Assembly (NCBI RefSeq): GCF_003130405.1
Contig: NZ_QEAS01000014.1
Location: 1-52,948, forward strand
From: Pararcticibacter amylolyticus
GTDB taxonomy: Bacteria > Bacteroidota > Bacteroidia > Sphingobacteriales > Sphingobacteriaceae
Direction of reading: 5' to 3'
DNA length: 52,948 bases
Part shown: in pieces, positions 1-50,504 of the stretch
Numbering within the stretch: the stretch's first letter is position 1
How the letters are laid out: each line of letters begins with the position of its first letter
Made by a program: the position numbers and the translations under genes
The notes under the pieces: model-generated
Seen by the model: only the letters and a program-made list of their open reading frames with translations
The model's database searches: none
Told to the model about the DNA's origin: nothing

Positions 1-3000
1 CTCGGAGATACTTGTGGTCCAGGCCGTCCACCCGTTCTTCGGACTGTAGCTCGTCCCGTCGTGCTTATAGCCCTGCGCGCGGTTGAACTGCCAGTACCAT
101 CCGGCTGATGGTTCGGTATTGTCGTTTACGGCAGCTGCCTGGCGGTCGGAGCCCAAATTCTGAGCTAACCAGCACATCAAAGAGCCAGATATCTCTGTAC
201 TGATAGCCTCATATTTAACAATCTTATTCTCCGGTGCTCCATTGAGGCCGGCAACATGAATCGCATCTATAGGTTTGCAGATTTTGAACCTTACCGAAAG
301 CGCGCTATATCCTGTACCGGCACTATTTGTCGCAAACGCCCTTACATAGTATGTCCTCCCATCCTCCAACCCATTTATTGCCGCCGTAAAATCTCCCAGG
401 CCGGTCGTATCAACCTCCACGACATTATCGTTGATCGTTGGATTCCCGGTAGCATTCCATACTAATCCTCTCTTAGTTACAGGAGCGCCGCCATCTGGCG
501 TCACAGTAGCTGTTCCAACAGCAACACTGTCGGTCATTTTAATGATCGTAACATTGCTTACCGCGGGCGGTGTAATCACAATATCCTCTCTTATACATCG
601 TAAAGACCACCCCCTGTCAGCTTTACTGTAACTTGCCACTTTAGCAGTACCTGTTGCTGCACTAAACTCCAGATACGAGCCTGTAGTTGCGCTGGCCTGA
701 GTTGCACTCCAGAACATTCCATAGCTTCCGCGGTCTACCAGTGCTCCTGATTTCAGTTGACCGCCATAATGCAGTTTTAGTTCAGAAGTGTATGCATTTT
801 TAGCCCCCCATCCGCCACTAGCTACCGCGTTCGTCCATTCTGTTGCTGTCGGTATTCTCCAGCCCGTACTCAAAAGCGATCTGCATGGATCAGAGACAGA
901 CGTCCAGTTCGAATTTTCATTGATTGCTGCAACCCAGCCGACATTCGGAGTCAATATGGAACCATCGTGTTTGTACCCTTGAATCCTGTTAAACTGCCAA
1001 TACCATCCTGCGGAGGCTTCAGATGTATTAGTTGCAGCATCTGCTACCTGATCGGCACCCAGATTCTGAGTAAGCCAGCAACTTGCCGCTCCTGAAAGTG
1101 TACTGTTAACAGAATGATATTTGATCTTTTTAGTAACAGGAACACCATTGAATCCTGCACTGTGCAGAATTTCAAATTCCTGGGGACAAATCCTGAATGT
1201 TGTTACCTGCGGACTATAATTAAGGCCAATGCTATTCTCAGCATATGCTCTTACATAATATGTCGGACCCTCTTTTAAGCCTTCTATTATCCCGTTAAAC
1301 GTCGAGTCTGTCGAACCAGATGGTATCCTGTTATCATTAATAGTAGGATTGCCTGTCGTATTCCACACAATGCCTCGCGCAGTTACCGGCGATCCTCCAT
1401 TAGTTACTATGGAGGCGATCGCTTCTGCTGTACTATCAGTCATTGTAGTAGTGGAAATAACCACATTACTCAATGTCGGCGGCATCTTCACTGCTGCATC
1501 TCTTAAGCATCTGACCGAGAACCCATAAGCCTTATCATGAGCAACCATTGCGCTGCCCGCGTTGTAGAACTGAAGATCCCAGCCAGCCGTTGCACTGTTC
1601 CTGGTACTGCTCCAGTAGTTACCCTGAGTACCGCGTCCGCCAAGTGCGCCGGTATTGTAAGCAAGATATCCGGCATTATGTAGTTTTAATACGGAATTAT
1701 AAGCGTCATTGTGAGTATTCCAGTTCTGCGGCGCAGCATCTGCATTCAGCCATTCTGTATAAGTTGGCATACGCCAGTCGACACCCAGCATATTATTACA
1801 TGGATCATTAACAGGAGTCCAGTCACTTGCCTCGTTGATGGATGTGAGCCATGCAACAGGGGTACGGACACTTCCTGTATGCTGATATCCCAGCATCCTG
1901 TTAAACTGGAAATACCACCCGGCAGAAGGTTCAGTACCATCTGTTGCTGTTGTTGCTTCCCTGTCAGCTCCCAGATTTTGGGTGATCCAGCACCGGGCTG
2001 CGCCGGTCATATAAGTACCGGTAGCATGATATGTTACTTTCTTTGTCACGGGCGCTCCCTTCACTCCTGCAGTATGCTGAATGTCAAAAGAAGCCGGGCA
2101 AATAACAGTCATCACCGCATTGAAACCTGTACTGTCACTATAAGCAGTCCCGGCGCTGTTTGTTGCATACGCCCGGATGTAGTAAGTTTCTCCTTCCTTC
2201 AATCCGGTAACTTTCCCGGTAAAGGCGCCCGTTCCACCGTCTGTATCGGTCATCACATGATCTGCCAGTGTCGGGTTTCCTGTTGTATTCCAGCAGAAGC
2301 CACGGGCGGTAACCGGCGCGCCGCCGTCTGACCCAATTGCAGCTGATGCATTTGCTGATGTAGCGGTCATCGTGAAAGGATCAACCCTTACATCTCCCAC
2401 AGAAGGGATTGATATTTTAATCGAATCACGGAGACATCTTACGCTGAATGCATATGCCTTGTCATGACTTAAAACCGGATTAGCAGACGAATAAACGGGA
2501 AGATCATACGCTGCCGTAGTATTTGTTTGAACACTGCTCCAAAAATTACCTTGCGTACCCCGGCCGGCCAATACCCCGGTAGTATTATTAAGATATCCTG
2601 AATAATGAAGTTTAAGAGGAGAGGTTGCAAAAGGAAGTCCCCCGTTACTAATCACATTTGTCCACTCCGTGCTGGTCGGGATGCGCCATCCCGAACCCAG
2701 GAGTGAAGTACATGGGTCTGTAGCGGATGTCCAGTTACCGGTTTCATTTATAGAGATCCAGCCGGTAAGAGGCGTACGCAGGGTTCCGTCATATTGATAT
2801 GCCTGTGTACGGTTGAATTGCCAGTACCAGCCAGCTGATACATCAGTCGCATCTGCAAGTGAGGCCGCCTGCTGATCGGCCCCCAGATTCTGTGTCAGCC
2901 AGCATGCTGCCTGGCCGGACAAGGTACTGCTCACCGAATGATAGGTTACCTTTTTGGTTACAGCAGCTCCATCGATACCTGCAATATGCTGAATAGTGAA

Positions 3001-11994: not shown

Positions 11995-12012
11995 GATTCC
12001 CGATAAAAGCGC

Positions 12013-15000
12013 TTATTCCAGTTTTTTGAGAATAGAGTTAATTTGCTGCTGCTGTTTATCAAGGCGCGATTTCAACTCATTTATTTCCAGCTGCTGATCT
12101 TTCATTCTCTTCTGCTGTTCTTTCACAGCCTCTATCAGAACAGCCGTCAATTGTGTATAGTCAACCTTCAGATAACCATCTTCCCCTTTTGTCACCATGT
12201 CTGGATAGACATTTTTCAACTCCTGTGCAACAACCCCGATCTTAGGGCCTTTAGCATATTTTTTCTGATCCCTGTATTCAAAAGTCACCCCCCTCATCTG
12301 CTCAATAGCCTGCAGCACATTACTCAGAGTTACTATATTTGTTTTCAGCCGCTCATCAGACGGTGTATACAAGTTCCCTTTAATGGTTACATCCTGTGCG
12401 AAGACACCACTTCCGGAAGACTCAAAACTTAATCCTCTGCCGTCCTGCCCGTCACCGCTGATTGAATAAGAAAGGGTTTTAATATTCTGACTTGCGGTAT
12501 GATTTCCGAGGTTATCTCCAGGAACGGTAATATTTGACGAACCGTCAAAAGAGATCCCGTTAATAGTGATGGGGGTGGTCAGCTTAGTTGCTGAATAAAC
12601 ATTTTTAGTTGCATCTGCTGTATTATCGACGTTATTAAGAGCCAGCAAAGCCTTCACCTGGGCGGCAGTTAAAGCCTGTGGAGCAGCATCAGATGCAGTA
12701 TTGTTCCCAAGTAGAGTATTTCCACTGACAGGCGCAGCCTTCACGTTCAACACCTGCGCATCTACGTATTTCTTTGTAGCGGCATCCTGAGCAGCAGTTG
12801 GATCGGCCAGCGCAGTGATCCTGAAATCAGAAAGAGGTAAGTCTTTATTGACAGAACCAAATTCGCTTAGGGAAATGACACTTTTTTCAACTGCTGCTGC
12901 GTTTCCGGAGGCATCCCCTACATAAACCTGCCCCGTTGGCAACTGGCTGTTTACAGGGATCCATTTTGTTCCGTCATACACATAAAGCTTTTTCTCTGTG
13001 GTATTATAGTAGGTATTCCCCGGGGTGGGTGTGGTTGGCGGGGTTACTGAAATTGAACCGATCTTACCATCTACATATTTCTTGTTAACAGCATCCAGAT
13101 CAGCAGTGGGCTCTGCAAGATTGATGATCTTGTAATTATTACTTCCCGTACCCATAGAAATATTCGCTTCGGCGTCGCCAAACCCACTCAGGGGAATAGC
13201 ACTTTTTGCCACCGAAGCAGCCTTGCCGGCAGCATCACCCACCAGCATGTTCCCTTTGGGAAGGGCAAGAAGGGTATTTATCCCTGCAAAAAGATCGTCT
13301 ACATATTTCTTATTGGCAGCGTCAAGATCAGCGGATGGTGTCCCTAATCCGGTTATCTTAAAGTTAGCGAGAGGAAGATCTTTATTAACAGCGCCGAACT
13401 CGCTTATAGAGATGGTACTCTTTTCGGCAGGAGCTGCATTTCCTGATGCATCTCCCACATACAACTGCCCAGTCGGTAGCTGGCTGTTAACTGGGATCCA
13501 CTTGCTGCCATCATATACATACAATTTCTTTTCTGTCGTATTATAATAAGTGCTTCCCGTAGTTGGAGTTGCAGGCGGCGTAGTAACAACCGATCCGACC
13601 TTGCTGTCAACATACTTCTTTGTCGCAGCATCCTGATCGGATGAGGGATCCGCAAGGGTGGTAATTTTAAAATTCCCAAGAGGAAAGTCCTTTGTAACCG
13701 CTCCGAATTCGCTCAGGGAAATCGTACTTTTTTCAACCGCTGCTGCATTTCCGGATGCATCCCCTACATAAACCTGACCCGTTGGCAACTGGCTGTTGAC
13801 AGGGATCCACTTTGTTCCGTTATAGACGTAAAGCTTGTTCTCAGTTGTATTATAATAGGTGCTGCCTAGGGTTGGAGTCGCAGGAGGAGTAACCGTGATT
13901 GTCCCCGCCTTACTGTCTACATATTTTTTATTTGCAGCATCATGATCGGCCGTAGGATCTGCCAGATTGATAACCTTGTAATTATTACTCCCTGTTCCTA
14001 ATGATATGTTAGCCTCTGCATCCCCGAAACCGCTAAGAGGAATAGCACTCTTTGCAACAGAAGCCGCTTTACCTGTTGCGTCTCCAACCAGCATGTTTCC
14101 TTTTGGAAGCAGAAGCAGGTTATTGACACCAGCCAAAAGATCATCGACATATTTCTTATTTGCGGCATCGAGATCAGCGGACGGTGTTCCTAATCCGGTT
14201 ATTTTAAAGTTTGCCAGGGGAAGATCCTTCGTAACATTACCAAAGTCGCTGACAGATATTGTATTCTTCGCAGCAGGAGCGGCGTTTCCGGAGGCATCTC
14301 CTACATATAACTGACCGGTTGGCAACTGGCTGTTTACCGGAATCCATTTCGTCCCGTCATAGACATAAAGCTTCTTTTCAGTCGTGTTGTAATAAGTGCT
14401 CCCGGCAGAAGGGCTTGTTGGCTGAGTAGTTGGAGTGGTTCCTGTTTTCCCATCTACATAGTTTTTTGTAGCAGCGTCCTGCGCAAGACTGGGGTCAGCC
14501 AGATCTGTGATCTTATGTGCTCCAAATGAAATATCTGCCTTCGGAGCACCGAATTCATTCAAAAACAAAGAGCTCTTTGTAGTGGCTGTAGCTTTATTTG
14601 AGGCATTTCCAACAAACAGCTGACCGGATGGTAAAGCAAGAAGACCACTCACAGCTGAAAGCTGGGTGGTCAGATACTTTTTATTGATGGCGTCGCCATC
14701 ATTTACCGGATCACGCAGATCCGTTATATTGAAGTTGCCCAGAGAAAGGTTCTGGGCAGCAGCCCCAAAATCGGTAATCGGGACACTGGTCTTGGCTATC
14801 GCTTCAGCCTGGTTTGCTACATTCCCGACAAGAATATGGCTGTTCGCTAATGTAATAGATGACGGATTCGCGATCTTTAAATCAACATAAGCTTTTGTCG
14901 CAGCATCCTGAGCGTCCAGCGGATTGGCAAGATTACTGATGGTAAATTGAGAAATGGCATCTCCCATGTAAACAGGTGCTGTGGCTTTTCCGAAACCGCT

Positions 15001-17109: not shown

Positions 17110-17114
17110 GTAGT

Positions 17115-20100: not shown

Positions 20101-22835
20101 CTGCCCGCTTGACTTTCGAGGGCGGTTAAAGCGTCCTGCACATTTGTCTTACTCAAAACTGGTGTACTAAGAGAAACATTTGATGCAGGCAGAGTACCTG
20201 TTACAGCAGTGCCTGAAAGATCAACAGCGCCGGCTGCGAGCTTGGCAGCTGTTACCGCACCATCCTTAATCTTCGCAGACGTCACCGCGTCATTGTTTAG
20301 AGTAAGAGTTGGAGTCAGCGATGTCCGGCTTGAAACCGGAGCGGCAGTGGCAACGTCCCCTCCTGTAGTTTGAAATGAAATTGCCTGGTCTGCACCTGTA
20401 TTAATCGCCTCCAGCGCTTCCTGAACATTATTCTTCCCCGCAACAGGTGAAGTAAGCCCAACTCCTGATGCATTCTGGTCACCTGTATTGCTGCCTGAAA
20501 CCGATGATCCGGCAGCAGCAGTAAGCAAAGTAGTCCCGTTTGAAGCATCTTTGATCGTTATCCCTGTACCGGTATTAGTGAGGGTGAGGCCATTGATATT
20601 CTTACCTGTTCCGAGGTCAGCAGGTAAACTGCCGGAAGGTAATGTCCCTGTTACTTTTGTACCTGAGAGATCTACTGCTCCGGTTGCAAGCTTAGCTGAA
20701 GTAACGGCGCCATCCGCTAATTTAGCAGTGGTTACGGTTCCGTCGATGAGCTTGTTCGTTCCAATGACTCCGTCTCTTATTGAAAGAACCGGAGTAAGCG
20801 CCGATCCGGATACGGACGGTGCAGTTACATCCCCGGTATTGGACGGGCTGAATGTGACAGACCCGCTACCGGTTGGGATTCCGGCGGCGGCGAGCGACCG
20901 GCTTAGCCATTGACTTCCGTCCCATTGAAGGATATCTCCTGTCGCAGATCCGGAATTTAACCCTAAAGTCGTTCCGGATATAGCAAGGCCGTTTCCAATT
21001 CCTATTTTCTCAGGTGTCCCCGAACCGGAACCCGCTTTCCCGATCAATGAAGGCCCTGTCATATCAGCGAGCTTACTGAAAGAAACTGCTTTATTAACCA
21101 GATAAAGAGGAGTCGTCTTCCCATCTCCGGATATCGTTGAACCATCAGTTGTGACACCGCTAAATCCACCTCCTGCAACTGAAGCGGGAACATTTACCCA
21201 GCTCGTGCCATTCCACTGAAGGATGTCATTGACAGACTTCCCACCTGTAATTACATTTGACAAACCGTCCAGTGCATGATTATGCGTTGATGAAGCAAGT
21301 CCGCTAAAATCAACACTTAGCTTTGAATCACTCCCGAATACAAGTCCGCTTCCGATTCCGATCGGCGCTGGCGTCCCTGTCCCGGAAGCTCTTCCTAAGA
21401 AAGACGGACCTGTAATGTCAGCGAGTCTTAGCGGGTCGGCAGCTGTGCCCTTACCCTGCAACATAGACCCGGTTCCAAGTGTAACCTGGGTAAGAGCACC
21501 GGCAGGCACTGTACCTATTTTGCTGTTCAGGCCTGTAATTGCATCCTGAACCGTATTTCCCAATCCGGGTGCCAGGCTGTTATCAAAGGGTACTTCAGCA
21601 GCTGACTGGTCATCCGTTGAAACCGGCAACTGTACCCAGGTGCCCTTTCCGCTCAGATAATAGTCTGAGAGGTTATTCCCGGCAATAGCTGAAGCAGGAA
21701 TGGAGCCTGTCTGAAACCTTGCGGCAGGAATGTATCCTGATGAAAGATTAGCGGCATTCGTCTGATCCACATTCTTTACATTGCCGAGGCCGACATCTCC
21801 GGCACTAAGTGCCAGCATAGCTTTTAAATCACCAATGGATAAAGCCACCGGGGTAGCGTCAGCTCCTGAATTATTGCCCAGTATCGTTCCGCTGGCTATA
21901 GGAGACAATCCCCCCTGATCAGTCCACTTAAACCCGCCCAGTCCGTCGGACGACAATATTTGTCCGGCGCTGCCATGACTAGTGATGCTCTTTAATTTTA
22001 CAGCCGTAATTCCCTGGTCGTTTACTGAAAGCTTCGATGACGTCTGGCCTGTACCCACTAGTGTTTCATCATGATAAACGATCCCGGGCACTCCATTCCC
22101 CCCGTTTGCCAGCGCCAGGATCCCTGAAAGGTCGACATGACTGTTCCTTGGCCCTGAGATGGACAGTACCGTCCCGGCAAGACTTAATGACTGGTACAAG
22201 TCGGCAAGGCTAACCGAATTCCCTCCTTTAATCGAGAGATTTTGTTCATTGTCGAGGCTCAGCGTGGGCTCAAATTTAGTAATAGATGAAGCGACAAGGT
22301 CATCAACATATTTCTTATTGGCAGCGTCCTTGTTATTTGTCGGTGCTGCAAGATTAGTTAATTTAAACCCTCCCATCGAAACATTGGAGGCTCCCAGCAT
22401 TGCCGCACCTGTTGCAGGCCATGCTCCGTTTGCCTTGGGACCATATAAGGTATACGTACTGGTGTTGATATAAAAATCCCCATTATTCCCAACGCCCGTT
22501 GCAGGGTTGGAGCTACCGTTCAGCAAACTGTTCCCTGAAGAACCGTTTCCGGCACCTGTTTCCGTTGAGCTGGCAAGCCGTTTCCATTCCCCGGCATTAT
22601 AAAAATAAAAGCCCGGCGTATTATCCGTCTGATAAACCAGCAATCCTGTAGCGGGACTGGCAATGCTGCCACGTTGCGCAGAGGAGAGTCTGGGGATCAG
22701 CAATCCCTTCGAGATTGAATAAACTTCAAGCTGAGCACTCGCATCCGGGGTAGTCGTTCCTATCCCCACCTGGGCCCTTGTTTGCAGTGAGAAAAATACA
22801 GCGATAAGAATAAGGCATATAAATCTTCTATCCAT
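17115..22835 (-). CDS. Large repetitive surface fibre-like protein with 'VGIGTTTP' N-terminal module
   Basis: The 1906-aa product begins with a signal peptide (MDRRFICLILIAVFFSLQ, TRAQ) and then the Bacteroidota module 'VGIGTTTPDASAQLEV...KGLLIPRLSSAQR...GLLVYQTDNTPGFYFYNAGEW'. The body is rich in Gly, Ser, Thr, Ala and Asn and low in charge. It contains many phage-fibre-like segments ('SGSVTFSPSNTGDVTAPS', 'DGAVTSAKLATGAVDLSGT', 'TTLGGVIVESGSGLNLS') and two 'LTNLxAPxxxxDAxxKKYVDD' motifs near residues 170 and 1045. The last 100 residues ('VDYIRIKTDYNTVGSD' to 'GYYVILNY') form a different cap with no S74 domain and no recognisable T9SS signal. The stop is 5 nt before the next gene's ATG, so those two are almost certainly co-transcribed. 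It is 189 nt downstream of the PorP/SprF gene, and I found no clear promoter or terminator in that gap. Structural role inferred; no enzymatic motif seen. Confidence 0.92.
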   Translation of the reverse strand: MDRRFICLILIAVFFSLQTRAQVGIGTTTPDASAQLEVYSISKGLLIPRLSSAQRGSIASPATGLLVYQTDNTPGFYFYNAGEWKRLASSTETGAGNGSSGNSLLNGSSNPATGVGNNGDFYINTSTYTLYGPKANGAWPATGAAMLGASNVSMGGFKLTNLAAPTNNKDAANKKYVDDLVASSITKFEPTLSLDNEQNLSIKGGNSVSLADLYQSLSLAGTVLSISGPRNSHVDLSGILALANGGNGVPGIVYHDETLVGTGQTSSKLSVNDQGITAVKLKSITSHGSAGQILSSDGLGGFKWTDQGGLSPIASGTILGNNSGADATPVALSIGDLKAMLALSAGDVGLGNVKNVDQTNAANLSSGYIPAARFQTGSIPASAIAGNNLSDYYLSGKGTWVQLPVSTDDQSAAEVPFDNSLAPGLGNTVQDAITGLNSKIGTVPAGALTQVTLGTGSMLQGKGTAADPLRLADITGPSFLGRASGTGTPAPIGIGSGLVFGSDSKLSVDFSGLASSTHNHALDGLSNVITGGKSVNDILQWNGTSWVNVPASVAGGGFSGVTTDGSTISGDGKTTPLYLVNKAVSFSKLADMTGPSLIGKAGSGSGTPEKIGIGNGLAISGTTLGLNSGSATGDILQWDGSQWLSRSLAAAGIPTGSGSVTFSPSNTGDVTAPSVSGSALTPVLSIRDGVIGTNKLIDGTVTTAKLADGAVTSAKLATGAVDLSGTKVTGTLPSGSLPADLGTGKNINGLTLTNTGTGITIKDASNGTTLLTAAAGSSVSGSNTGDQNASGVGLTSPVAGKNNVQEALEAINTGADQAISFQTTGGDVATAAPVSSRTSLTPTLTLNNDAVTSAKIKDGAVTAAKLAAGAVDLSGTAVTGTLPASNVSLSTPVLSKTNVQDALTALESQAGSSISGVSAGSGLSGGGTTGNITLSLASNGVGASNLKGMGNTALGAGTSGYVLQSNGDGTFGWFNLSGGVSADPSTLTLSQGQFYVGNSSNKAEATAKNLIPLSGFGTPTTDIGLGSFKLTNLGAPSSASDAATKKYVDDQVAAVSPSLALDGLSNVTITSKATNDLIQWNGTKWVNKKITDAIPVATTSVAGLLSGTDKTKLDGLSSYILPAATSTTLGGVIVESGSGLNLSAGKLSVNSSALTGVVNSMVAGDGISVSGATGNVTVGVADNGITTAKILNGGVTLSKIETIAAHTLLGNSTGSSASPQAITLGSGLAFSGTSLALDPSTLPVASASTSGTVKIGNGLKMTSGVLSVDASTTSGFVTGISGPEITVTPNSPGAGNSYVSLNDGSITLAKLKSLSGTSKLVGSSSSGSSVSEITIGSGLSLSGSVLTATGGGGSGTVTTVGVATANGFAGDVANATSTPQITLKTTVNGILQGNGTGISAATTTGTGSVVLATNPTITGATISGSLSGNASTATSATTATNATNTAITAAGTSGTVYPTFVSATTGNLPQQVTSALTYNLATQELNAKIQPSNITNYPASGSVYLAGDGTWKAASADLSGLKLSYTASSGVIGLTNGGSAISGSSQTIPAVTSSNPGLMASSDFTKLTNYLPATSTAGLVLTSTTSGATWQAASGGSSITGIGYNYTSANDQYNAYISLGGTSYKAAVPVLTDANVTTDPGLLVKTDKVKLMRIPTISASSSGIGQVLVSGAGGTTSAWQTPALSYTAAPASGGIKLSLGSADYSVTVPQAIASTTITGTDGTAGLLNANDKFKLNNTLPAPSTAGLVLTSKADGSAEWKTSSGGGSGSDGRRVYFINSKKVLVKGSGTAITCTQTGSNINIVIPSDAIVDYIRIKTDYNTVGSDVLTVSVTDNSSLVNTDKFTDMMPPMVDVLGLMTATTDPNPYLRPTQVADPIIKECSNGKIVIEIANLTWNEPAGYYVILNY

Positions 22836-23024
22836 GTGAAAGGCTCGAATTACTGTTAAAATTTGATATACAGGCTACTACACACATATTCATTAGTATT
22901 AGTATACGTTACCTGTGGGGTAATACGCCAGCTATTGGTGAATGTTACCGACACACCGTCAATAATTTTTTAAGGGTTTTCAGACCGGTTATCCTAGATG
23001 ACACAGGCTGGCTTTAAACTCTTT

Positions 23025-24053
23025 TTAATAAAAATCGTAGCAACGTCTCCCCGAATTCTGATGCCTGTACCGGGAAGCAGCCGGGTTCCGGTTAGGGAAT
23101 GTTGTCTCATAACTCAAGGCGCCTTCCGTAGACCCGGAAGTGTTCCCGTACTGAAGTTTAGACAAAGTAGCATCATGGCTCACCCCCATTCTGACTTTAT
23201 CGTACATATCCTTCCTTACAAACAGATCAAAGATGAGTGAAAGAACCACAGCATCCCCTTTTGTTGCAGCCTCACTGCGGTACCATAATCCAAGATTTAC
23301 CGCCCTGTACTTATACTGAAAGCCTGTGCTCAATGACTTTGAATTGCCCTGGTGATAGTATACCAGGGAAGGAATGAGAGCCGGCCCCGATTCTTCATCG
23401 TAAGGATCAAGCGCCAGCCTGTAGCTGGCATGCCCGTTTACCCTCACAGGCAATGTTGCACTCGCCCCGGTGAAGGATTCATTGGGTTTGTTAAGATGCT
23501 GGGAGGCTATGCCCATCATGAAGTTTCCGGCAACAAGATTAATTCCGGCTCCCGCGTCGAAGAAATATTTATTGTTCATGGAGGGAACCGATGCCTCTGA
23601 TACCGCCCCCGGGATAATTCCTGTCACCGGATCGATCTGATCGCCAAATACGATCTGGCTGTAATCTATTTTGCGCCGGGTAAGCCCGGCCTGGACACCA
23701 AATGACAGGATCGCGTTATCAAATGAAACGCTGTATGAATATATCCCTGACATATTAAGCTTTCGGAGATACGCAGTTCCCTCATTCGAGCTGGTGACCA
23801 GTAAACCAACTCCTCCGTTCAGCTTTGGAACAGTGTAGTCTGCCGAAAAAGTAAAATAATTGAGACCACCAGGTACAGAACTCCACTGGTTCCTGTAAAT
23901 CATATTCGCACGCAGGTCGCCTTCGAACTGACCGTTTAAAGCTGGATTCAGATAATTCGGGGCATTAAAAAACTGCGAATAAATATGATCCTGGGCCGAC
24001 ACACGGCCTAAAGCCAGACCCGTTAGCAAGAATACCGGAAATAAGCGTTTCAT
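23025..24053 (-). CDS. PorP/SprF family T9SS membrane protein
   Basis: The 342-aa product is an outer-membrane beta-barrel of the PorP/SprF family. Characterised members anchor or help export T9SS surface proteins (SprF is needed for the adhesin SprB in Flavobacterium). Family features are a signal peptide (MKRLFPVFLLTGLALGRVSAQ), 'DHIYSQFFNAPNYLNPALNG' right after it, 'NMIYRNQW' and late strands such as 'SLVYYHQGN'. I chose the ATG at 24053 because it gives a clean signal peptide and lies 5 nt after the stop of the PKD protein gene. An in-frame ATG at 24125 would overlap that gene and bury the signal peptide. A PorP/SprF gene directly after a gene for a T9SS-sorted giant protein is a common pairing in this phylum, so the PKD protein is its likely client. 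Confidence 0.95.
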   Translation of the reverse strand: MKRLFPVFLLTGLALGRVSAQDHIYSQFFNAPNYLNPALNGQFEGDLRANMIYRNQWSSVPGGLNYFTFSADYTVPKLNGGVGLLVTSSNEGTAYLRKLNMSGIYSYSVSFDNAILSFGVQAGLTRRKIDYSQIVFGDQIDPVTGIIPGAVSEASVPSMNNKYFFDAGAGINLVAGNFMMGIASQHLNKPNESFTGASATLPVRVNGHASYRLALDPYDEESGPALIPSLVYYHQGNSKSLSTGFQYKYRAVNLGLWYRSEAATKGDAVVLSLIFDLFVRKDMYDKVRMGVSHDATLSKLQYGNTSGSTEGALSYETTFPNRNPAASRYRHQNSGRRCYDFY

Positions 24054-24058
24054 TCTAT

Positions 24059-27000
24059 TTATCTTATAAGGTGTACCGGCCCAACTGTTTTCCTGGACCC
24101 TCTCTCGTATTTCATTCCTTTCCATTCACTTCCGTCAAGGAAGGTGGCGGTAATTTCCCAGATATAAACTCCCTGCGGGGCTGGTGAACCACCTGCCGTA
24201 CCATCCCATCCTTCTGCTGGAGCACCAGTCTCATCCAGCTTGTCGGTCTGCCAGATCAGCGTCCCCCATGTATTAAAGACCTTCAATGAATATTTCGCTA
24301 TTCCCGAGCCTTTTGGCTTAAAGGTCTTTAACTCAAATTTAGAACTCCCCGGTTCAAAGCCGTTGGGAACGTACAGGAAGCCCGGCACACCGTCGATCCG
24401 GAGATCTTTAGTGGCGAAATCTGTACATCCCTCTGCATTCGTCACGGTTAGTTTCACCGTATATGGCCCATGATAGGTATACGTGTGAACAGGGCTTTCT
24501 TCCTCTGAAGTGGTGCCGTCACCGAAATACCATTTGTATTTCAAACCAGCACCCTCACTCTTGTTTTTAAAAGAAAAGGTGTAGTCCGGCACCTTTATAA
24601 CCGGGTCAGGTAATACATCAAACCTCGCCGATGGAGGTGCCGACACGTATACAATCTGTACAGCAGATTCTTTACAGCCGTATTCTCCAGTGACTGTCAA
24701 CCGTACTGTAAAGGGAGATCCGATATATCCGAATGTATGTGAAGGGTTGCTCTCTGTTGAGTATGTACCATCCCCAAAATCCCATTCATATCTGTTGGCA
24801 TGAAGGGAAGTATTTTGAAATGTTACATTCAGCTGCGTACATCCTCTGTTCACACTCGGCACAAATATGGGCTGTGGCGGAAGAGCGATGAAAACAAAAC
24901 GGGTAAGGGTATCACTGCACGTATTGTTCGAGGCGATCAGCCTGAGCTTATATACCCCGGGGGCCCCATACAGATGCTGCGGAACAGTTTGCGCAGACAA
25001 AGGACTGCCATCCCCGAAATCCCATGTATAGCTGGTGGCCCCGGTGCTGGTGTTAGTTACCGCAATGTCCAGTTTGCCGTTACAGCTGATGCTGTCTGCT
25101 AAGGTAAACCAGGCCTTCGGCTTCATATAGGTACTGATACTTCTTTCCAGACTGTCCATGACACAGCCATATTTTCCTGCTACCTTAAGCTTGATGGTAT
25201 ACGTCTTCCCTGCGTCTGGCAAAATGATATCAGGGTCCTTGTCTGTCGAAACCAGCACACCGTCAAGATACCAGAAGGCAAAATCTGCGTATGCTGACTT
25301 GTTCTCGATATCTATCTTATAGGGGGCACATGCAATGGCTGATTTCAGGACAAAGTTTGCTTTCGGAATAGGATTAAACTGAATAAGATGCTTTACGGTA
25401 TCAGGACAACCAAGGGTACTGGCTGTGACCAGAGTCACTTCATACCGGTAGGGTAACATTGCATTCGATGGTACCGAAAAGGGATAACTCATGTCCTTTT
25501 GAACAGAAACCGTTCTGCCATCGATTAACCACTTGTAAGCTACAGGATCCGTTCCGGCATATGCTGTTTCATTTTTGAAATGTATCGTGGCCGATGTTCC
25601 GCAGATCATTGTATCTGTTGCCGAAAAAGCAGCAGCCGGCCTTGGCTGGATCTTTATGGACTTGACAACAGTGTCGGAGCAGCCCAACGCATTATGGGCT
25701 ATCTCCTTCACAATATAAGTGCCGGGCATTGTAAAGGTGTGCTCTGCGGTATGTCCCGTCATCCTGTTATCCGTACTGCCCGGATCTCCGAACTCCCACT
25801 CTACATAAGGTGCATTGGCAGGCGTTGTTGATACCACCAGCTTAAACGGAGCGCAATTGACAGACGTAGCATTGCTCGTAAATAAAGCTACGGGCAAAGG
25901 CTGTATCTCAACCTGCTGAGTAGTAGAATTACTGCAAACAGAACCGTCAGGGTGAGACTGGAGTACCGTTAACTGAACATTGTATTTTCCCGCCCGGGCA
26001 AAAGCATGACGGGGATTTGCATCTGTGCTGGTGCCTCCGTCATCAAAATTCCACATACAGGAAGCTGAACCCGATAGCTTGCTTAAGAACTGAACAGAGT
26101 CTTTCAAACAATACGTACTACTGTTAAATGTAAAGCCAGCATCGGGAAGGGCATATACGGTGATCGTTTTCGTATCAGTGGCAGAAGAACAACCGTTGGT
26201 TGCAAACAGCGACACATCGTAAGTACCGGGGACGGTAAATGTATGAATATTGGATTCAGGAGCAGACGTAGTATTGGCAGTGCTTCCATCCTTAAAATCC
26301 CAGAAGAAACGGTTTGCTCCTTCGGTATGGTTGTCAAACCTCACGGTAAGGGGGGCACAGCCAAATCTCCTGTCTCCATCCACAATAAGCCGCGGAACAA
26401 TTGTATTGGGGTAAATCACAATATTATAGCTGGCAGTGTCCGTACCACATTCATTTTCCGCTTTCAGCCTGACCGTAATCGTATCTGTTTTGGCTGAAGA
26501 GAAGGTGTGGCGTACCGAAAGGGTATCGTTCGTAACATAAGTTTGGCCATCGCCAAAATCAAATGTATATGTAGACGCCCCTCCCTTCGATTGGTTTCTG
26601 AAAGATATTTCCAATGGAGAGCAACCCCATGTTTTGTCTGGAGAGAGAACAGCCAGCGGCTTCGGACGTACTACAACCGAATCGGTAAAGACAGTCTCCT
26701 TACAGCCGGTAGAGGCTTTTAGGGTGATAACATACGTGGTATCTTTACCTGCCGGATCAGGATCAAATACCATTGTTCCGGGATGAACGGATGTGGAAGT
26801 TTGTCCGTTACCAAAATTCCATGTATATGTTCCTCCGCTTAACGGAGTTGAAGTGTTAACAAAGTTTACAGACAGGGGACCACATCCCTTCACCTGATCT
26901 TTAGTAAAAGAGGCGGTCACATCTTTTACAGTCTCAAATGTGAACTTTGTTGTATCAGCACCACATCCGAATTTACTTGCAGTGACGAGCTGGATGGTCA

Positions 27001-30000
27001 CCGATGCCCCGTCATGAGACAGAACGTAACCAGGAAAGGTCTTTCCTGTTCCGATGCTAACACCGTCAGCAAACCATTCGTAGTTGCCATTCCTGTCATC
27101 ATGCGGGACAAGGGAGATCACCTGGCCAAGATCGAAAGGAACGCACGACTTCAGCCTGGCAACATTCACCTCTGCTTCAGGCAAAGGATTGATCACAATG
27201 CTAATTTCATTACTTACATTTTTCTGATCCCCGGAACACAGAGCCGTTGTTACAATTCTTCTGAACCAGGTTGTCTGTGGTAAGGTACCAGGATCCAGGG
27301 ATGCGGAGTTTGCTCCCGCCATATCATTCCAAACAGTCCCATCCGTACTTCTTTGCCATTGGTAGAAGTAAGTTCCGTCGCCTCCGAGAGGAACACTGCC
27401 AGTGAGAACCGAAGACGGCTGACCTGCGCACAAAACCTGGTCTGCCCCGATAGTATTATTCGTAACAGCAGGTTGTACAGTAGTGAAAACAGTGTTGCTG
27501 ACAGCGGAACATGGCCCGGATTCAACAATCCTTCTTACCCAGGCTGAAACAGTAAATATGCGGATCAGATCCTTTCCTGTTTCCCCCGGCAGATCTGACC
27601 ATGAGCTATTATCGCTGCTGATCTGCCATCGATAAACATAAGTCCCATCCCCGCCTGAGGGAGCATCGCCCTCGGCTTTAACAGTCTGCCCGGAACAGAT
27701 AGTCGTGCTTCCTGTAATATTATTTACCAGAGGGGCATAATTATAGATGGTGACGTCGTCTGTGCTCGCATCACAAATACCATTACTGATTTCCCATCGG
27801 AAAACATACGTGCCCGGCACAAGCGCACTCACGGTCGTGGTTGAAGAAAGGGGATCGCTGATCACAGCAGCCGGGCCACTTTCCTGCTTCCATTTTCCTG
27901 TTCCGGCAGATGGGCTATTCCCGCTTAGAGTGACAGTGGTTTCATTACACAAGTACTGATCCTGTCCTGCTACTGCTGCTGTAACATTAGGCAGAGCCTG
28001 GATATGAGTAATAGTTGAATATACTTCTGAACAGGCTCCATTCCGCACCACTGCACGAAACCACATATCTGTGCTAAGATTATGAAAAGTACAATTGGAT
28101 GAAGTCACTGGTACATTAGCCCATGTACTGAAATTATCAGCGGATTGCTCCCATCTCACGACAGTTCCCTTTTCTCCGGAGAGTGAAACCGTTACAGCAT
28201 TTCCTCCTATACATACCCGGGAAACACTGGCAGAGGTAGTTCCTCCTTCAGCAGGCTCGTCGACCTGCACCTTTACCGGATCCGAATAAATAAAGCCGGC
28301 ACATCCCGAAGCCTGAGTGGCCTTTACCCTGTACCACATGGTCTGGATGAGAGCGCCGGGATTGTAGGTATCATTTACAGCACCATTGATATCTGTAAAG
28401 TTCACGTTATCGGCAGACGATTGCCACTGGATCTCGTCCGTCATAGAATACGAGGACAAGACAAGGGTTCCGGGGCCGGTTCCCTTACAGATTGCAATAT
28501 TGCCCCCGTTGATGGTTCCCTTTACAGGAAAGGCAATCACGTTCACCGTTAAGATTGCAGCACTTTCTTTGCATGCGGCATCTCCGCTGGTTGCATCATT
28601 CTTTATCTTCCATTCAAACTGATATGTCCCCGGTTGCAGACCTGTAATACTGGTATTGTAAAGAGATGGATTGGCGATGAAAGCTGTCGGCCCTGATAAC
28701 TTTGTCCAATGCCCGGTTTCCCCGTTAGAGGCCAATGGCTCATTTCCCGTCAGTTGAATAAAATTATTTGTAGCCGCACTGTTCAGGCAAACCTGTAAGG
28801 GTGAGCTGACTACAGCAGTAGTTACCGGTTTTCTCACAATGACCTGTACAACAGATGTCTCGTCCGGACAGGGCGCCACTCCTTTTATCCGCCACTCAAG
28901 CTGATAACTATTTCCCGGCTGAAAATTGCTGACCGTTGCTACAGGATCCGAAACAGAGGAAAATGTCAGTGAACCTCCGGGAGATAGTTCTTTCCATTCT
29001 CCGGAGAAACCGGCTCCGGGATTATTTCCGTCAAGCTTGTAACTGGATGAATTGCATAATATCAAATCAGCCCCTGCATTCGCGACAGGCGTAGTTGCGT
29101 TTACAAGGATCTTGAGAGAACTACTTACAGCCTCACAACTATTATGACTTCTCACAATCCTCCGGTACCAGGTTGTTGCAGTTGGGTAAACAGTGAGCGT
29201 TTCCTGACCGGCACCTCCGATAGTAGCCCATGACACGTTATCGGGTGAAGATTCCCATGAATAAGAATATGAAGGGGCAATAAAACCGTTATCACCGCCG
29301 GACAATGCATCTGTCGACAAAACCACAGCTTCTCCCGGGCAGGAAATCGTTCGGTCTGCTTTGACAGAATTTGAAATATCGGTCAGAACATCGAGAATCA
29401 TTTGATCCGGAACTCCCGGGCAGGTACCATTGCTTATGGTCCAGAAGAATTCGTATCGCTTGCCTTTTTCGAGGTTGCTAATGACGCTATTGTAATGACC
29501 GGGATTATTTATCAGAGCCGTCTGCCCCCAGGGCTGTGTCCAGCTTCCGGTTCCAATCAGGGGTTGGTTACCATCTAGCTGCCATAAAGCGGCTGCGTCA
29601 ATACATATTTTCGCATCTGAACCGGCATTTGCAGGTGTGGGCTTGGGATCAACAGTTATTATGAAAGGATCTGATTTCGCGACCGAACATTCTCCGCTTT
29701 TAACAACTGCCCTGAACAATGTAGAGACAAGAAGAGTATTGTATGTATAAATTGCGGAAGCAGTTCCGGCAATTGAAGCCCAGATATTGCCCCCATCTTC
29801 AGACTTCTCCCAACCGGTGATCGTGCCTACATAGTCAGTAACTTTAATCTTACCGGTAAAAACGGACCCTTCGCAATATGTAGTCGGATCTGTACTGTTA
29901 ACGGTACCTCCTACAGACAAAGGATCAACAGGAAGCTTAAGTAGATTAGAATAAGCTACATTAGAGCATCCATCCCCCTTTCCTTTGCTTGCTACCACAG

Positions 30001-32455
30001 AACGGAAATAAGTTGTTTGCTGGATATTATTGAAAACAATACTGCTTGCTGCGCTTCCAAGCGAAATGTAATCTGCATCCCCTGGAAGAGAACCCTTGTC
30101 AGGAGCATATTGCCAGTCAATTAATGTTCCGGTAGCGCTGTTAGCTGCGGTAAGAGTGATGTTTGAGCCAGCACAAACAGATGCGGGTTTTCCTGGTTGA
30201 AGGGCTTCTGCACATGAGATTGCTCCGGCAGCAGGCACCTGGTACACCTTTAAAATCATCTCATCGTATTCTTCACACCCACCGGGATTTGTTACGGTCC
30301 ATCTTAAAGTATAGGTACCCGCTTTGAGATTGATTAACTTAGCATTATGAGTATTAGATATGCCATTTTCAAATGAATAAACCGGACTACCCGGCAGTAC
30401 AGTCCATTTACCTGTTTCATAGTTCTTAGGCTTATTCCCTCTTAATTTGAAATATGTATCATTTGATGTAAATGGAACATTTTTACAGAGTACCGTGTCC
30501 GCTCCCGCATCCACAACAATCTCATCATAAAACGTCACATTCTGACTGCTGCTAACTGCCGTTCCGCATTCATTATTATATGCCACCGATACGGTGTATT
30601 TCTTTCCCGGTTCCTTAAATTTGATTTTAGGAAATGCTTTTGTGTCCGACCCGTCTATAAATTCATAGTCCCCTCCGCTTACACTCCACTGATAGGTCTT
30701 ATTCTTCCCAAATCCTTCATAAGCTGGCTTCAGTCTTGTCTCGGCGGAAAAGTCAACATCAACAGGAACTCCCAGGCATATCTTAGCCTCTGATGGTTGT
30801 GTGACCGCAAGTCCTCCTGCCACCACAAAAGGCTTGTCGAGCACCACATCGTCGCAGGAATTAGAAACCGTAAGCCTGAGAATGTAATTTCCGGGCTTGT
30901 TAACCTGGATCACGGGTGCTTTACTGGTATCCTGATCAAGAAAAACAATCCCATCCGTAACCACCACCCCGCTTACAGAATCCAGCACCTGCCATAAATA
31001 CTTTTTGTTGCACAGATTAGCAATGCTCGTCTTATTAACCGTGGTTAAAGTTGCCGAATTACAGGGTGCGGACTGAGTAAATTCGAAATCGGGAACCGGC
31101 AGATCCGATATACAGATATCGTGGATCATTTCTGTTGGTTCACAGGTATTGTTACTTGCTACCAGTTTGATATTGTAAGTCCCATGTTCGTCAAACTGGT
31201 AAATAAGGTCCTGCGCTTTCGATTTAAGACTCCAGTTCGTGTCTGTATTCTTTTTAACATACCACTTATAGTTCGTCATCTTATCACAAGCATCCCCCGT
31301 AGCAGTAGGAGACTCCCCCGGTATGGTCGTATTCATAAAAGATACCATCTTTCCCTTACAGCCGCCTTCCACTGGTACCTCAAACTCCGCGGCGGGCATC
31401 ATGAACACTTTTGCATAGGTGGTGATCGGAACGGAAGAGCCTGTGCAAAAGTCTGAAGACAGAAAAATATTGGCCTGAAATGCATTATAAATAGGCGTTG
31501 AAAGCAATATCGGGGGCTGTCCGCATGAGGTCGATTTATACTGATGGACTGCTATCCCACTTTGAGCAAGCAGCTCATCCTGGGTAAAGGAGTCAATCAT
31601 CCCATCGCCCCAGTCGAAAGAATAAACCAGCCCCGGATAGTTCGATACAATACCATTCCCCGCGCTGGTATTAACAGAATAGGTGACTTTTTCATTCTCG
31701 TCGTTTGAGTGATCATTCGGATCAATTTTTTGCTTTAAACAGATAGTCGGATTACCGCCTGACTGCAAACTCAGGTTAAAAGTGGTATTCAGAATGATAT
31801 ATCTCCTGGTAGAGATCACCCCGTTCAATTCGGCTTTTACACTTGCTGTATAATAGCTTTTTTTCAACGGTACCTCGTATAGGTTCCAGGCAGGAAAATC
31901 AAAAGATTCAGCGGGCACAGAAGCGTTGTAATTATCCTGGATTGACACATTCACTTTTGCCCCGCCTGTACTCTGATTCTCCAATGCAAGCAGGTTCCCG
32001 TCTTTTATCACATCGCAAAACCCGTAAATGAGGTCAGCTTTCAGTAAGTTCTTTTCCTCAGCCGGTATCACTCTAATTTCAGGCCCGTTTTTATCGGTAA
32101 TAGCGATGGTGGCATGAATTTCCTTAAGAACGTAAGGATTTGAAGCTACTATCCGGACTGTAAAATTGGTCCCCGGCTGCACCGTTGCAGGAAGTACTCC
32201 GTTGATAAATGTCGTATAATGACCGTCGAACGTACCCAATGGGCTGCCTCCGGAAAGAGAGCCCCCGGACGAATCGTACATCCACAGTTCAAATTTATTC
32301 CCCGCCTTAAATCCGGTGACACTGATGGGAATACTTATATTACTTCCGGGGCCATATGCCCCGGGATCAATAGTCCCAAACGTAATCTGCTGTGCTTTAC
32401 TGTCAGCACTCCAAACCAGAAATAAAACAATAACTACAGCTAACAGTCTCTGCAT
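24059..32455 (-). CDS. Giant Ig/PKD-repeat surface protein with T9SS type-B C-terminal domain
   Basis: The product is 2798 aa with a signal peptide (MQRLLAVVIVLFLVWSADSKAQ). Residues about 22-500 are an N-terminal region with scattered Ig-like motifs. Residues about 500-1850 alternate Ig-like units ('GxWxxxSGP...PGxYxFxWxI') with 'WxRRIVxSxxCS' units. Residues about 1850-2690 hold about ten PKD-like domains, eight with a clear 'YxWDFGDG' type motif and two degenerate. The last 105 residues match the gliding-motility-associated C-terminal domain: 'VPNGFEP', 'KVFNTWGTLIWQTD', 'GWDGT', 'PAPQGVYIWEI', ending 'GPVHLIR'. That domain marks proteins for the T9SS, and type-B members such as SprB depend on a PorP/SprF partner, which is the next gene. 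The protein is probably a long surface adhesin or the scaffold of the cluster. Its upstream gap of 184 nt has no consensus promoter that I can see. Confidence 0.95.
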   Translation of the reverse strand: MQRLLAVVIVLFLVWSADSKAQQITFGTIDPGAYGPGSNISIPISVTGFKAGNKFELWMYDSSGGSLSGGSPLGTFDGHYTTFINGVLPATVQPGTNFTVRIVASNPYVLKEIHATIAITDKNGPEIRVIPAEEKNLLKADLIYGFCDVIKDGNLLALENQSTGGAKVNVSIQDNYNASVPAESFDFPAWNLYEVPLKKSYYTASVKAELNGVISTRRYIILNTTFNLSLQSGGNPTICLKQKIDPNDHSNDENEKVTYSVNTSAGNGIVSNYPGLVYSFDWGDGMIDSFTQDELLAQSGIAVHQYKSTSCGQPPILLSTPIYNAFQANIFLSSDFCTGSSVPITTYAKVFMMPAAEFEVPVEGGCKGKMVSFMNTTIPGESPTATGDACDKMTNYKWYVKKNTDTNWSLKSKAQDLIYQFDEHGTYNIKLVASNNTCEPTEMIHDICISDLPVPDFEFTQSAPCNSATLTTVNKTSIANLCNKKYLWQVLDSVSGVVVTDGIVFLDQDTSKAPVIQVNKPGNYILRLTVSNSCDDVVLDKPFVVAGGLAVTQPSEAKICLGVPVDVDFSAETRLKPAYEGFGKNKTYQWSVSGGDYEFIDGSDTKAFPKIKFKEPGKKYTVSVAYNNECGTAVSSSQNVTFYDEIVVDAGADTVLCKNVPFTSNDTYFKLRGNKPKNYETGKWTVLPGSPVYSFENGISNTHNAKLINLKAGTYTLRWTVTNPGGCEEYDEMILKVYQVPAAGAISCAEALQPGKPASVCAGSNITLTAANSATGTLIDWQYAPDKGSLPGDADYISLGSAASSIVFNNIQQTTYFRSVVASKGKGDGCSNVAYSNLLKLPVDPLSVGGTVNSTDPTTYCEGSVFTGKIKVTDYVGTITGWEKSEDGGNIWASIAGTASAIYTYNTLLVSTLFRAVVKSGECSVAKSDPFIITVDPKPTPANAGSDAKICIDAAALWQLDGNQPLIGTGSWTQPWGQTALINNPGHYNSVISNLEKGKRYEFFWTISNGTCPGVPDQMILDVLTDISNSVKADRTISCPGEAVVLSTDALSGGDNGFIAPSYSYSWESSPDNVSWATIGGAGQETLTVYPTATTWYRRIVRSHNSCEAVSSSLKILVNATTPVANAGADLILCNSSSYKLDGNNPGAGFSGEWKELSPGGSLTFSSVSDPVATVSNFQPGNSYQLEWRIKGVAPCPDETSVVQVIVRKPVTTAVVSSPLQVCLNSAATNNFIQLTGNEPLASNGETGHWTKLSGPTAFIANPSLYNTSITGLQPGTYQFEWKIKNDATSGDAACKESAAILTVNVIAFPVKGTINGGNIAICKGTGPGTLVLSSYSMTDEIQWQSSADNVNFTDINGAVNDTYNPGALIQTMWYRVKATQASGCAGFIYSDPVKVQVDEPAEGGTTSASVSRVCIGGNAVTVSLSGEKGTVVRWEQSADNFSTWANVPVTSSNCTFHNLSTDMWFRAVVRNGACSEVYSTITHIQALPNVTAAVAGQDQYLCNETTVTLSGNSPSAGTGKWKQESGPAAVISDPLSSTTTVSALVPGTYVFRWEISNGICDASTDDVTIYNYAPLVNNITGSTTICSGQTVKAEGDAPSGGDGTYVYRWQISSDNSSWSDLPGETGKDLIRIFTVSAWVRRIVESGPCSAVSNTVFTTVQPAVTNNTIGADQVLCAGQPSSVLTGSVPLGGDGTYFYQWQRSTDGTVWNDMAGANSASLDPGTLPQTTWFRRIVTTALCSGDQKNVSNEISIVINPLPEAEVNVARLKSCVPFDLGQVISLVPHDDRNGNYEWFADGVSIGTGKTFPGYVLSHDGASVTIQLVTASKFGCGADTTKFTFETVKDVTASFTKDQVKGCGPLSVNFVNTSTPLSGGTYTWNFGNGQTSTSVHPGTMVFDPDPAGKDTTYVITLKASTGCKETVFTDSVVVRPKPLAVLSPDKTWGCSPLEISFRNQSKGGASTYTFDFGDGQTYVTNDTLSVRHTFSSAKTDTITVRLKAENECGTDTASYNIVIYPNTIVPRLIVDGDRRFGCAPLTVRFDNHTEGANRFFWDFKDGSTANTTSAPESNIHTFTVPGTYDVSLFATNGCSSATDTKTITVYALPDAGFTFNSSTYCLKDSVQFLSKLSGSASCMWNFDDGGTSTDANPRHAFARAGKYNVQLTVLQSHPDGSVCSNSTTQQVEIQPLPVALFTSNATSVNCAPFKLVVSTTPANAPYVEWEFGDPGSTDNRMTGHTAEHTFTMPGTYIVKEIAHNALGCSDTVVKSIKIQPRPAAAFSATDTMICGTSATIHFKNETAYAGTDPVAYKWLIDGRTVSVQKDMSYPFSVPSNAMLPYRYEVTLVTASTLGCPDTVKHLIQFNPIPKANFVLKSAIACAPYKIDIENKSAYADFAFWYLDGVLVSTDKDPDIILPDAGKTYTIKLKVAGKYGCVMDSLERSISTYMKPKAWFTLADSISCNGKLDIAVTNTSTGATSYTWDFGDGSPLSAQTVPQHLYGAPGVYKLRLIASNNTCSDTLTRFVFIALPPQPIFVPSVNRGCTQLNVTFQNTSLHANRYEWDFGDGTYSTESNPSHTFGYIGSPFTVRLTVTGEYGCKESAVQIVYVSAPPSARFDVLPDPVIKVPDYTFSFKNKSEGAGLKYKWYFGDGTTSEEESPVHTYTYHGPYTVKLTVTNAEGCTDFATKDLRIDGVPGFLYVPNGFEPGSSKFELKTFKPKGSGIAKYSLKVFNTWGTLIWQTDKLDETGAPAEGWDGTAGGSPAPQGVYIWEITATFLDGSEWKGMKYERGSRKTVGPVHLIR
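24376..26908 (-). repeat. PKD domain array of about ten units
   Basis: Motifs of the form aromatic-x-aromatic-G-D/N-G recur about every 80-90 codons: WNFGNG, FDFGDG, WDFKDG, WNFDDG, WEFGDP, WDFGDG, WDFGDG and WYFGDG, with two units in which the motif has decayed to 'YKWLIDG' and 'AFWYLDG'. PKD domains are extended beta-sandwich spacers in surface proteins. Confidence 0.85.
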
Positions 32456-33854: not shown

Positions 33855-33874
33855 ACGCCAGTAATTGATTAATT

Positions 33875-33904
33875 CAAATTTAAACAATTGGCTGAGAAAC
33901 GCAA
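33875..33904 (-). promoter_or_regulatory. Bacteroidota sigma-A-type promoter for namZ
   Basis: On the minus strand TTG (33904-33902), a 19-nt spacer and TAAATTTG (33882-33875) match the phylum consensus TTG-N19-21-TAnnTTTG exactly. The predicted transcript would start near 33869, about 15 nt before the ATG at 33854. Confidence 0.75.
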
Positions 33905-33981
33905 CAAAACGCACATACAAAAAACATATCAGCAACAAAACGCAGATTAAAGTACCCCGTCTAACTATTTTTACTTTTTCC

Positions 33982-43761: not shown

Positions 43762-43762
43762 G

Positions 43763-43849
43763 CGGAGAGAGAGGGATTCGAACCCCCGGTACCTTTTACA
43801 GTACACCTGATTTCGAATCAGGCACATTCAACCGCTCTGACATCTCTCC
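43763..43849 (-). tRNA. tRNA-Ser (anticodon CGA)
   Basis: The 87-nt cloverleaf has a 7-bp acceptor stem (GGAGAGA with TCTCTCC), a D-arm with AGAGCGGTTGAATG, an anticodon stem CCTGA/TCAGG around the loop TTCGAAA giving anticodon CGA, a long class II variable arm and the T-loop GTTCGAAT. The discriminator base is G, as expected for serine, and CCA is not encoded. It reads UCG codons. Confidence 0.95.
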
Positions 43850-50490: not shown

Positions 50491-50504
50491 GATACTAATT
50501 CTGG

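Follow-up and report, generated by a model that had tools for sequence, protein, structure and literature searches.

The stretch of DNA analysed here, referred to as the window, comprises bases 1 to 52948 of contig C30 (180,636 bases) of the 6.3-Mb genome of Pararcticibacter amylolyticus, a bacterium of soil and ice, base 1 of the window being the contig's own start. At its low end lie five minus-strand open reading frames (ORFs), P1, PorP1, P3, P4 and P5, which form the first part of a cluster of eight genes. This cluster places fibre-like proteins, a giant FISUMP (Fibrobacter succinogenes major paralogous) protein and a thioredoxin-like protein between two pairs that each join a substrate of the type IX secretion system (T9SS) to a PorP-family shuttle. 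The features in the window are as follows.

Bases 24059 to 32455, minus strand: P1, a PKD-repeat giant with a C-terminal T9SS type-B-like (CHU_C) sorting domain, 2798 amino acids (aa).
Bases 23025 to 24053, minus strand: PorP1 (P2), an outer-membrane shuttle of the PorP/SprF family that ends ...RRCYDFY, 342 aa.
Bases 17115 to 22835, minus strand: P3, fibre-like, with DUF5907 repeats, a conserved N-terminus and a divergent C-terminal region of about 140 aa, 1906 aa in all.
Bases 17118 to 17543, minus strand: the divergent C-terminal domain of P3, a possible fibre tip, all-beta in a low-confidence model.
Bases 12013 to 17109, minus strand: P4, fibre-like, with repeated stalk modules and a C-terminal Peptidase_S74 domain (SDERLK at residue 1584), 1698 aa.
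Bases 1 to 11994, minus strand: P5, with N-terminal modules, Fn3-like repeats and then FISUMP plus Fn3 units, TTG start, cut at the contig end, at least 3998 aa.

By ORF coordinates, the strand, lengths and intergenic gaps of these genes (5, 189, 5 and 18 nt) agree with those in a preliminary description of the window. The PorP1 ORF taken from its first ATG spans 23025-24125 (366 aa), whereas the 342 aa are counted from the signal-peptide Met, with the start at 24053. P5 is truncated by an assembly break, because window base 1 is also base 1 of contig C30. Signal peptides, previously ascribed to all five proteins, could be read by eye: each protein opens with a hydrophobic leader, after which a Gln stands at the probable site of signal peptidase I (SPase I), in agreement with the Q-rule of Bacteroidetes (PMC5837995). 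Promoter-like sites occur in the region at chance (22 observed against 22.0 expected), as do matches to a Bacteroidota-type promoter pattern (2 against 1.48), while terminator-like sites exceed chance (22 against 13.6, standard deviation 3.8) and fall mostly within genes.

The five genes stand as first described, but the unit does not end with them and continues past the low end of the window. In a related genome, G002, eight genes follow one another on one contig in the order P1-PorP1-P3-P4-P5-g6-g7-PorP2. Contig C87 (L152) of the P. amylolyticus genome opens with 539 aa that match residues 5749-6287 of G002 P5 (84%) and then carries g6, g7 and PorP2; its start also matches other repeats of G002 P5 at 75%, and the last 250 residues of the window P5 match G002 P5 3747-3995 (88%). 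Provided that the lengths agree, some 1,750 codons would lie between C30 and C87, and the whole cluster would extend over about 43 kb. The three additional products measure 490 (g6), 419 (g7) and 315 aa (PorP2) in P. amylolyticus and, as called in G002 and G005, 477 and 495, 429 and 406, and 336 and 322 aa, respectively. In Pfam/NCBIfam profile scans, g7 is a second protein with a T9SS type-B signal (CHU_C, 88.4 bits; TIGR04131, 73.7 bits, cut-off 35), PorP2 matches PF11751 (177.1 bits) and TIGR03519 (170.7 bits, cut-off 90.55), and none of the eight gene products showed a PorE-like domain.

Conservation was followed in six genomes of the genus to which Arcticibacter belongs: that of P. amylolyticus itself (G000), Arcticibacter eurypsychrophilus (G001), G002, a Sphingobacteriales metagenome-assembled genome (G003), A. 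pallidicorallinus (G004) and A. svalbardensis (G005). The gene order recurs in all six, pieced together across contig breaks in most, which bears out the earlier expectation that related genomes would keep these genes together; the cultured strains A. svalbardensis MN12-7, A. eurypsychrophilus MJ9-5 and A. pallidicorallinus CGMCC 1.9313 are among the carriers. Pieces on separate contigs of one genome presumably belong together, because the eight genes stand in order on the one G002 contig. Every genome has P1, PorP1 and P3 in succession (the G003 contig begins inside P1), P4 lies behind P3 on the same contig in five of the six, and P5 lies behind P4 in five, G003 having a 107-aa stub. In G005, P3 extends to the end of its contig, and P4 is represented by its C-terminal part alone, which stands at the end of contig C62 and seems to change frame close to that end. 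P5 occupies one contig in G002 and G005 and two pieces in G000, G001 and G004, extending in G004 to the edge of the examined stretch, 500 bases from the contig start. The genes g6, g7 and PorP2 are found in 6/6 genomes, behind the P5 end in G000, G001, G002, G004 and G005 and behind the stub in G003. From P3 to PorP2 the gaps between first-start ORFs measure -32 to 57 nt, with the single exception of g7-PorP2 in G002 (1014 nt).

Nonsynonymous divergence (dN) between G000 and G002 is 0.097 for P5 (first 2331 aa), 0.118 for PorP1, 0.121 for P4, 0.127 for g6, 0.158 for PorP2, 0.194 for g7, 0.308 for P1 and 0.345 for P3; synonymous divergence (dS) is saturated for all cluster genes, and no dN/dS was formed. 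Because the order recurs in the other five genus genomes and amino-acid divergence is low at saturated dS, the conservation exceeds chance, and by sequence comparison the eight genes make up an operon-like unit that is conserved in all six genomes.

The first two genes encode a type-B-like substrate/PorP pair. P1 combines PKD repeats with CHU_C; the whole protein reaches 25.9 bits for this domain, under the cut-off of 27, and its last 160 aa reach 30.3 bits, while its TIGR04131 score (19.2 bits) is under the cut-off of 35. In an alignment of P1 ends (A5), 17/17 members match both CHU_C and TIGR04131 at E<=0.01. PorP1 matches PF11751 (PorP_SprF) with 135 bits and TIGR03519 with 165.8 bits (cut-off 90.55). 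In both pairs the PorP/SprF gene stands directly behind the substrate gene, at 5 nt for P1-PorP1 and 20 nt for g7-PorP2, an established arrangement for type-B substrates (PMC12618676; PMC9143113). SprB-SprF and Fjoh_3952-3951 of Flavobacterium johnsoniae and PG1035-PorP of Porphyromonas gingivalis likewise consist of a large leader-bearing CHU_C/type-B protein with a PorP/SprF gene next to it, a design that occurs twice here. Unlike these pairs, the present operon adds three giants and a thioredoxin-like protein between two pairs, the C-tail of PorP1 (its last 30 residues) holds a single Cys and that of PorP2 none, and the P1 C-terminal domain (CTD) scores under the TIGR04131 cut-off.

The pair itself is ordinary. 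A scan of the genome collection for PorP1 relatives gave 110 named loci, of which the best 80 were analysed, and genes like P3, P4 or P5 were sought around them by BLAST with window segments in flanks of at most 10 kb, some shorter, a search in which very divergent fibres could be missed. A P1-like ORF stands directly upstream of PorP at 75 of the 80 loci (the exceptions are L079, L108, L115, L136 and L139, the last cut by a contig end). P3-, P4- or P5-like genes occur at four of the five genus loci (L065, L067, L068 and L069) and at 0/75 others, and 71 of the 75 PKD-giant/PorP pairs, including all 70 outside the genus, have no such gene in the flank. The T9SS/PorP pairing in the preliminary description holds for P1 and PorP1, but it does not set this locus apart; within the genomes searched, it is the fibre/FISUMP extension that is restricted to the genus. 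When S74, FISUMP and PorP genes were compared over the same 80 genomes, with places matched by eye, S74 genes were present in 39, and the suggestion that PorP/SprF stands next to S74 and FISUMP genes across Bacteroidota was not upheld, since no such synteny was seen outside the genus among the matches listed. Among the same listed matches, the closest S74-PorP approach there is about 19 kb (G055:C1, S74 at 111499, PorP ending 92307). In G057:C11 and G072:C73, S74 and FISUMP genes come to within about 4 kb of each other and are separated by further ORFs.

That so many pairs stand without fibre-like genes is what would be expected if the cluster were a row of side-by-side units with no joint apparatus: two ordinary type-B pairs, the first of a kind common in the family, and, between them, a separate adhesin operon (P3-P4-P5-g6) whose products are exported by Sec. 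The spacing of the genes points the same way, in that the cluster has its widest gap between PorP1 and P3 (189, 143, 42 and 41 nt, and 226 nt in the G003 record), and so does the finding that P3, P4 and P5 carry no recognised CTD. We regard this explanation as possible but doubtful, given that the order recurs in every genus genome with a second PorP pair behind g6, that no terminator-like site is listed in the minus-strand PorP1-P3 gap of the window (22836-23024), and that in the G004 record the first-start P3 ORF overlaps PorP1 (gap -59).

The C-tail of PorP1 bears on how such a pair might be anchored. Its count of exactly one Cys is shared by 80/80 related named loci; because these loci were picked by similarity to PorP1, this is a trait of the PorP1 family and not an independent test. 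Of the eight PorP-family proteins of the P. amylolyticus genome, four (L002, L003, L007 and L008) carry a Cys among their last 30 residues, within either an NC..R.F or a CYDFY motif. The same genome encodes SprA (2698.9 bits) and GldK (595.5 bits), so that a T9SS translocon is present, and its GldK retains two Cys in alignment with PDB chains of PorK, either of which may be the counterpart of GldK Cys343. In F. johnsoniae, SprF is disulfide-linked to GldK (PMC12635249), and the type-B pairs without PorE are the mobile ones (PMC12618676; PMC9143113). A set of gliding-motility adhesins of the SprB/SprF kind, supplemented by further adhesins, would thus account for a giant and a PorP with a C-tail Cys, for the absence of a PorE-like gene from the cluster and for the presence of SprA and GldK. 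Even so, we consider such a set unlikely: A. svalbardensis is described as nonmotile (PMC3709154), a second paper reports no motility genes in Arcticibacter (PMC5435697), and the PorP1 tail has one Cys rather than the Cys-Xaa-Cys pair of SprF.

The two fibre-like proteins differ in what they carry. P4 has a Peptidase_S74 domain (58.2 bits, cut-off 22) behind its stalk modules, whereas P3, which the preliminary description had grouped with it as part of an S74-containing fibre pair, has DUF5907 as its sole Pfam match. The Ser and Lys of the P4 S74 domain, which we take to be the catalytic residues, are retained in 5/5 genus sequences, with the stricter pattern S[DE]xRLK in 3/5. P4 therefore carries a trimeric-fibre chaperone domain, and its trimerisation and self-cleavage are predictions. 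Taken in 100-aa bins, the first 300 aa of P3 in four other genomes share 57-86% identity with the window copy; over the C-terminal 140 aa the identity is 20-27% (alignment A4, five genomes). The last 138 aa gave no match in the other 79 of 80 genomes. An AlphaFold2 (AF2) model of this end is all-beta, and none of the 190 Foldseek matches listed for it reaches E<=0.001, so that no fold is claimed.

In its stalk modules and its C-terminal S74 domain, which retains the Ser and Lys of SDERLK, P4 resembles phage tail and endosialidase-type fibres, from which it differs in being a leader-bearing chromosomal protein of a conserved host cluster with no tail genes in the scanned flank. Its long repetitive stalk also recalls YadA-type trimeric autotransporter adhesins, and it has a YadA_stalk match of 20.6 bits, under the cut-off of 28.4; unlike that type, no YadA anchor-domain match is listed for P3 or P4 in the profile scans, and the C-terminus is S74 in P4 or a divergent domain in P3. 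P4 has many PHROG tail matches, and its S74 end matches 813 of 50,697 phage records, the best at about 30% identity. The term phage-like, as first used for both fibres, accordingly describes a domain resemblance only. These matches would be in keeping with a remnant or domesticated phage tail, or a contractile-injection fibre module, yet we find such an origin barely credible. All five window proteins have leaders, dN is low, S74 genes are spread over related genomes as noted above, P3 matches a single phage record, weakly, and the 10 flanking window ORFs compared with PHROGs gave no tail or baseplate match, only families of unknown function and a transcriptional regulator. A recent phage capture was rejected on the same P3 and flank results together with the distance of the P4 end from its phage matches.

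P5 is the largest product of the cluster, with 6287 aa in G002 and 5671 aa in G005. Its window part matches Fn3-like families, Lcl_C (38.0 bits, cut-off 34.9) and FISUMP TIGR02145 (66.8 bits, cut-off 41.65); the Pfam family Fib_succ_major scores 30.8 bits, under its cut-off of 33.9, and is found at no place in the P. amylolyticus genome at E<=0.001. Purpose-built profiles count 13 FISUMP units in G002 and 10 in G005, with 33 Fn3-like units, and six FISUMP units are visible in the window, the last one cut. P5 is thus like FISUMP and Lcl_C proteins in scoring above both cut-offs and in having four conserved Cys per unit, and unlike other FISUMP proteins in alternating its 10 or 13 units with Fn3 on one chain. 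The four Cys are invariant in 20/20 aligned units (alignment A2), which were picked by the pattern QNLG[AS][ND] and represent 5/6 units of the window (the cut one omitted), 8/13 of G002 and 7/10 of G005. A PDB profile search with a FISUMP plus Fn3 unit gave a best E of 0.028, and no fold is claimed. FISUMP and similar DUF1566 proteins are tabled as putative targets of diversity-generating retroelements, many with a predicted C-lectin fold (PMC4159848), which makes a ligand-binding role for the P5 units plausible, and a FISUMP protein is present in a Fibrobacter envelope proteome (PMC4619616).

Directly behind P5, g6 contains a CxxC motif that is invariant in 8/8 orthologues. At E<=1e-60, orthologues are found in 3 of 395 sampled class genomes (P. 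amylolyticus, G072 and G208), and in G072, which belongs to another family, the orthologue (50% identity) is the next gene behind a FISUMP protein. Because the FISUMP Cys and the g6 CxxC are invariant and the G072 gene has this neighbour, g6 is probably the disulfide enzyme of P5. A g6-like protein of 23% identity at L163:2468-3943 (G072:C18) is flanked on either side by FISUMP-type genes, which again hints that thioredoxin-like proteins of this sort travel with FISUMP genes.

Outside the cluster, a NamZ-type exo-beta-N-acetylmuramidase gene (exo-muramidase; 32640-33938) lies on the same strand directly upstream of P1, where the neighbours in G002 differ, and the window also holds two tRNA-Ser genes (43762-43849 and 50502-50592; anticodons cga and gga).

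Taking together the gene order, domains, conserved cysteines and conservation that are read from the sequence, we propose, with evenly balanced confidence, that the eight-gene Arcticibacter operon builds a multi-component cell-surface adhesion apparatus in which the eight products would act jointly. All eight would enter the periplasm via Sec and SPase I. P1 and g7 would then exit through the T9SS translocon SprA by their type-B CTDs and stay bound to the surface on the PorP-type shuttle encoded directly behind each. The C-tail Cys of PorP1 could be disulfide-linked to GldK, as in F. johnsoniae SprF, which would make the anchor mobile or able to bear force, while PorP2, with no Cys in its last 30 residues, would provide a static one. 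Because the single Cys of PorP1 differs from the SprF pair and the genus is reported to be nonmotile, the mobile or force-bearing anchor is put forward only as a possibility. At the cell surface, P3 and P4 would form trimeric fibres; P4 would mature with the help of its S74 chaperone, and binding specificity would reside in the fast-evolving end of P3. P5 would be a very long Fn3 stalk bearing 10-13 FISUMP heads with conserved Cys in each, whose disulfides g6 would make or repair.

Several observations weigh against this proposal, and we acknowledge them here. The promoter search gave no sites above chance in the region, and a single transcript is a prediction. G003 keeps P3, P4, g6, g7 and PorP2 beside a P5 stub (L043:9082-9405, the N-terminal 107 aa), which may be a real loss or a repeat collapse in the MAG assembly, and in G002 the g7-PorP2 gap holds a 329-aa DDE transposase ORF (L145:3390-4379; PF13612, 72.7 bits) that is not seen in the other five genus genomes. 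The second PKD-giant/PorP copy of A. eurypsychrophilus (L066), whose PorP is 71% identical to PorP1, has no fibre genes, and the single-Cys PorP tail, itself short of the SprF pair, occurs in all related loci with or without them; for any gliding role, the nonmotile character of the genus counts as well. For g6, all family matches fall under their cut-offs (AhpC-TSA 24.3 against 26, DUF5106 23.7 against 28, ResA 23.3 against 170), and the orthologue in G208, the other one outside the genus, does not adjoin a FISUMP gene. The AF2 models, with mean pLDDT (the confidence score of the model) of 54.5 for the FISUMP plus Fn3 unit and 59.9 for the P3 end, are too poor to support a fold. Finally, the profile scans gave no CHU_C, TIGR04131 or TIGR04183 match on P3, on P4 or on the window part and C87 end of P5, the roughly 1,750 unassembled residues of P5 being outside the scan, and the crossing of the outer membrane by these three proteins is thus unexplained.

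This last point bears on two further explanations. If P3-P5 remained periplasmic or beneath the outer membrane, Sec-type leaders without a known export signal are what one would see; the fast-evolving end of P3, the FISUMP repeats and the fibre domains nevertheless suggest exposed binding proteins, and we judge a sub-surface location highly unlikely. The preliminary description had gone in the opposite direction, with fibres built on a T9SS-exported scaffold, a view that finds no support in T9SS CTDs on P3, P4 or P5. A modified form of it, in which a T9SS-anchored platform carries or exports in trans phage-fibre-like trimers and a FISUMP giant that have no sorting signal of their own, seems improbable to us. 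The same low probability attaches to its details: the two PorP shuttles and their type-B partners would serve as the foundation, a C-tail Cys would couple one of the shuttles to the moving GldK track, and a thiol enzyme encoded in the operon would see to the disulfides. Were it true, fibres would have a new way of crossing the outer membrane of Bacteroidota.

As to the adhesion apparatus proposed here, we found no paper describing the eight-gene combination, most subscription papers lying outside the literature search, which agrees with the earlier remark that it is not a described system. In the known type-B/PorP pairs, a single adhesin goes with a single shuttle-anchor. What is new is that one genus preserves a fixed arrangement in which two such pairs enclose fibre-like and FISUMP giants without a recognised export signal. 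If the products act together, this cluster would offer a tractable case in which to ask by what route proteins lacking a T9SS signal arrive at the Bacteroidota surface and in what way anchors, fibres and a disulfide enzyme are combined.

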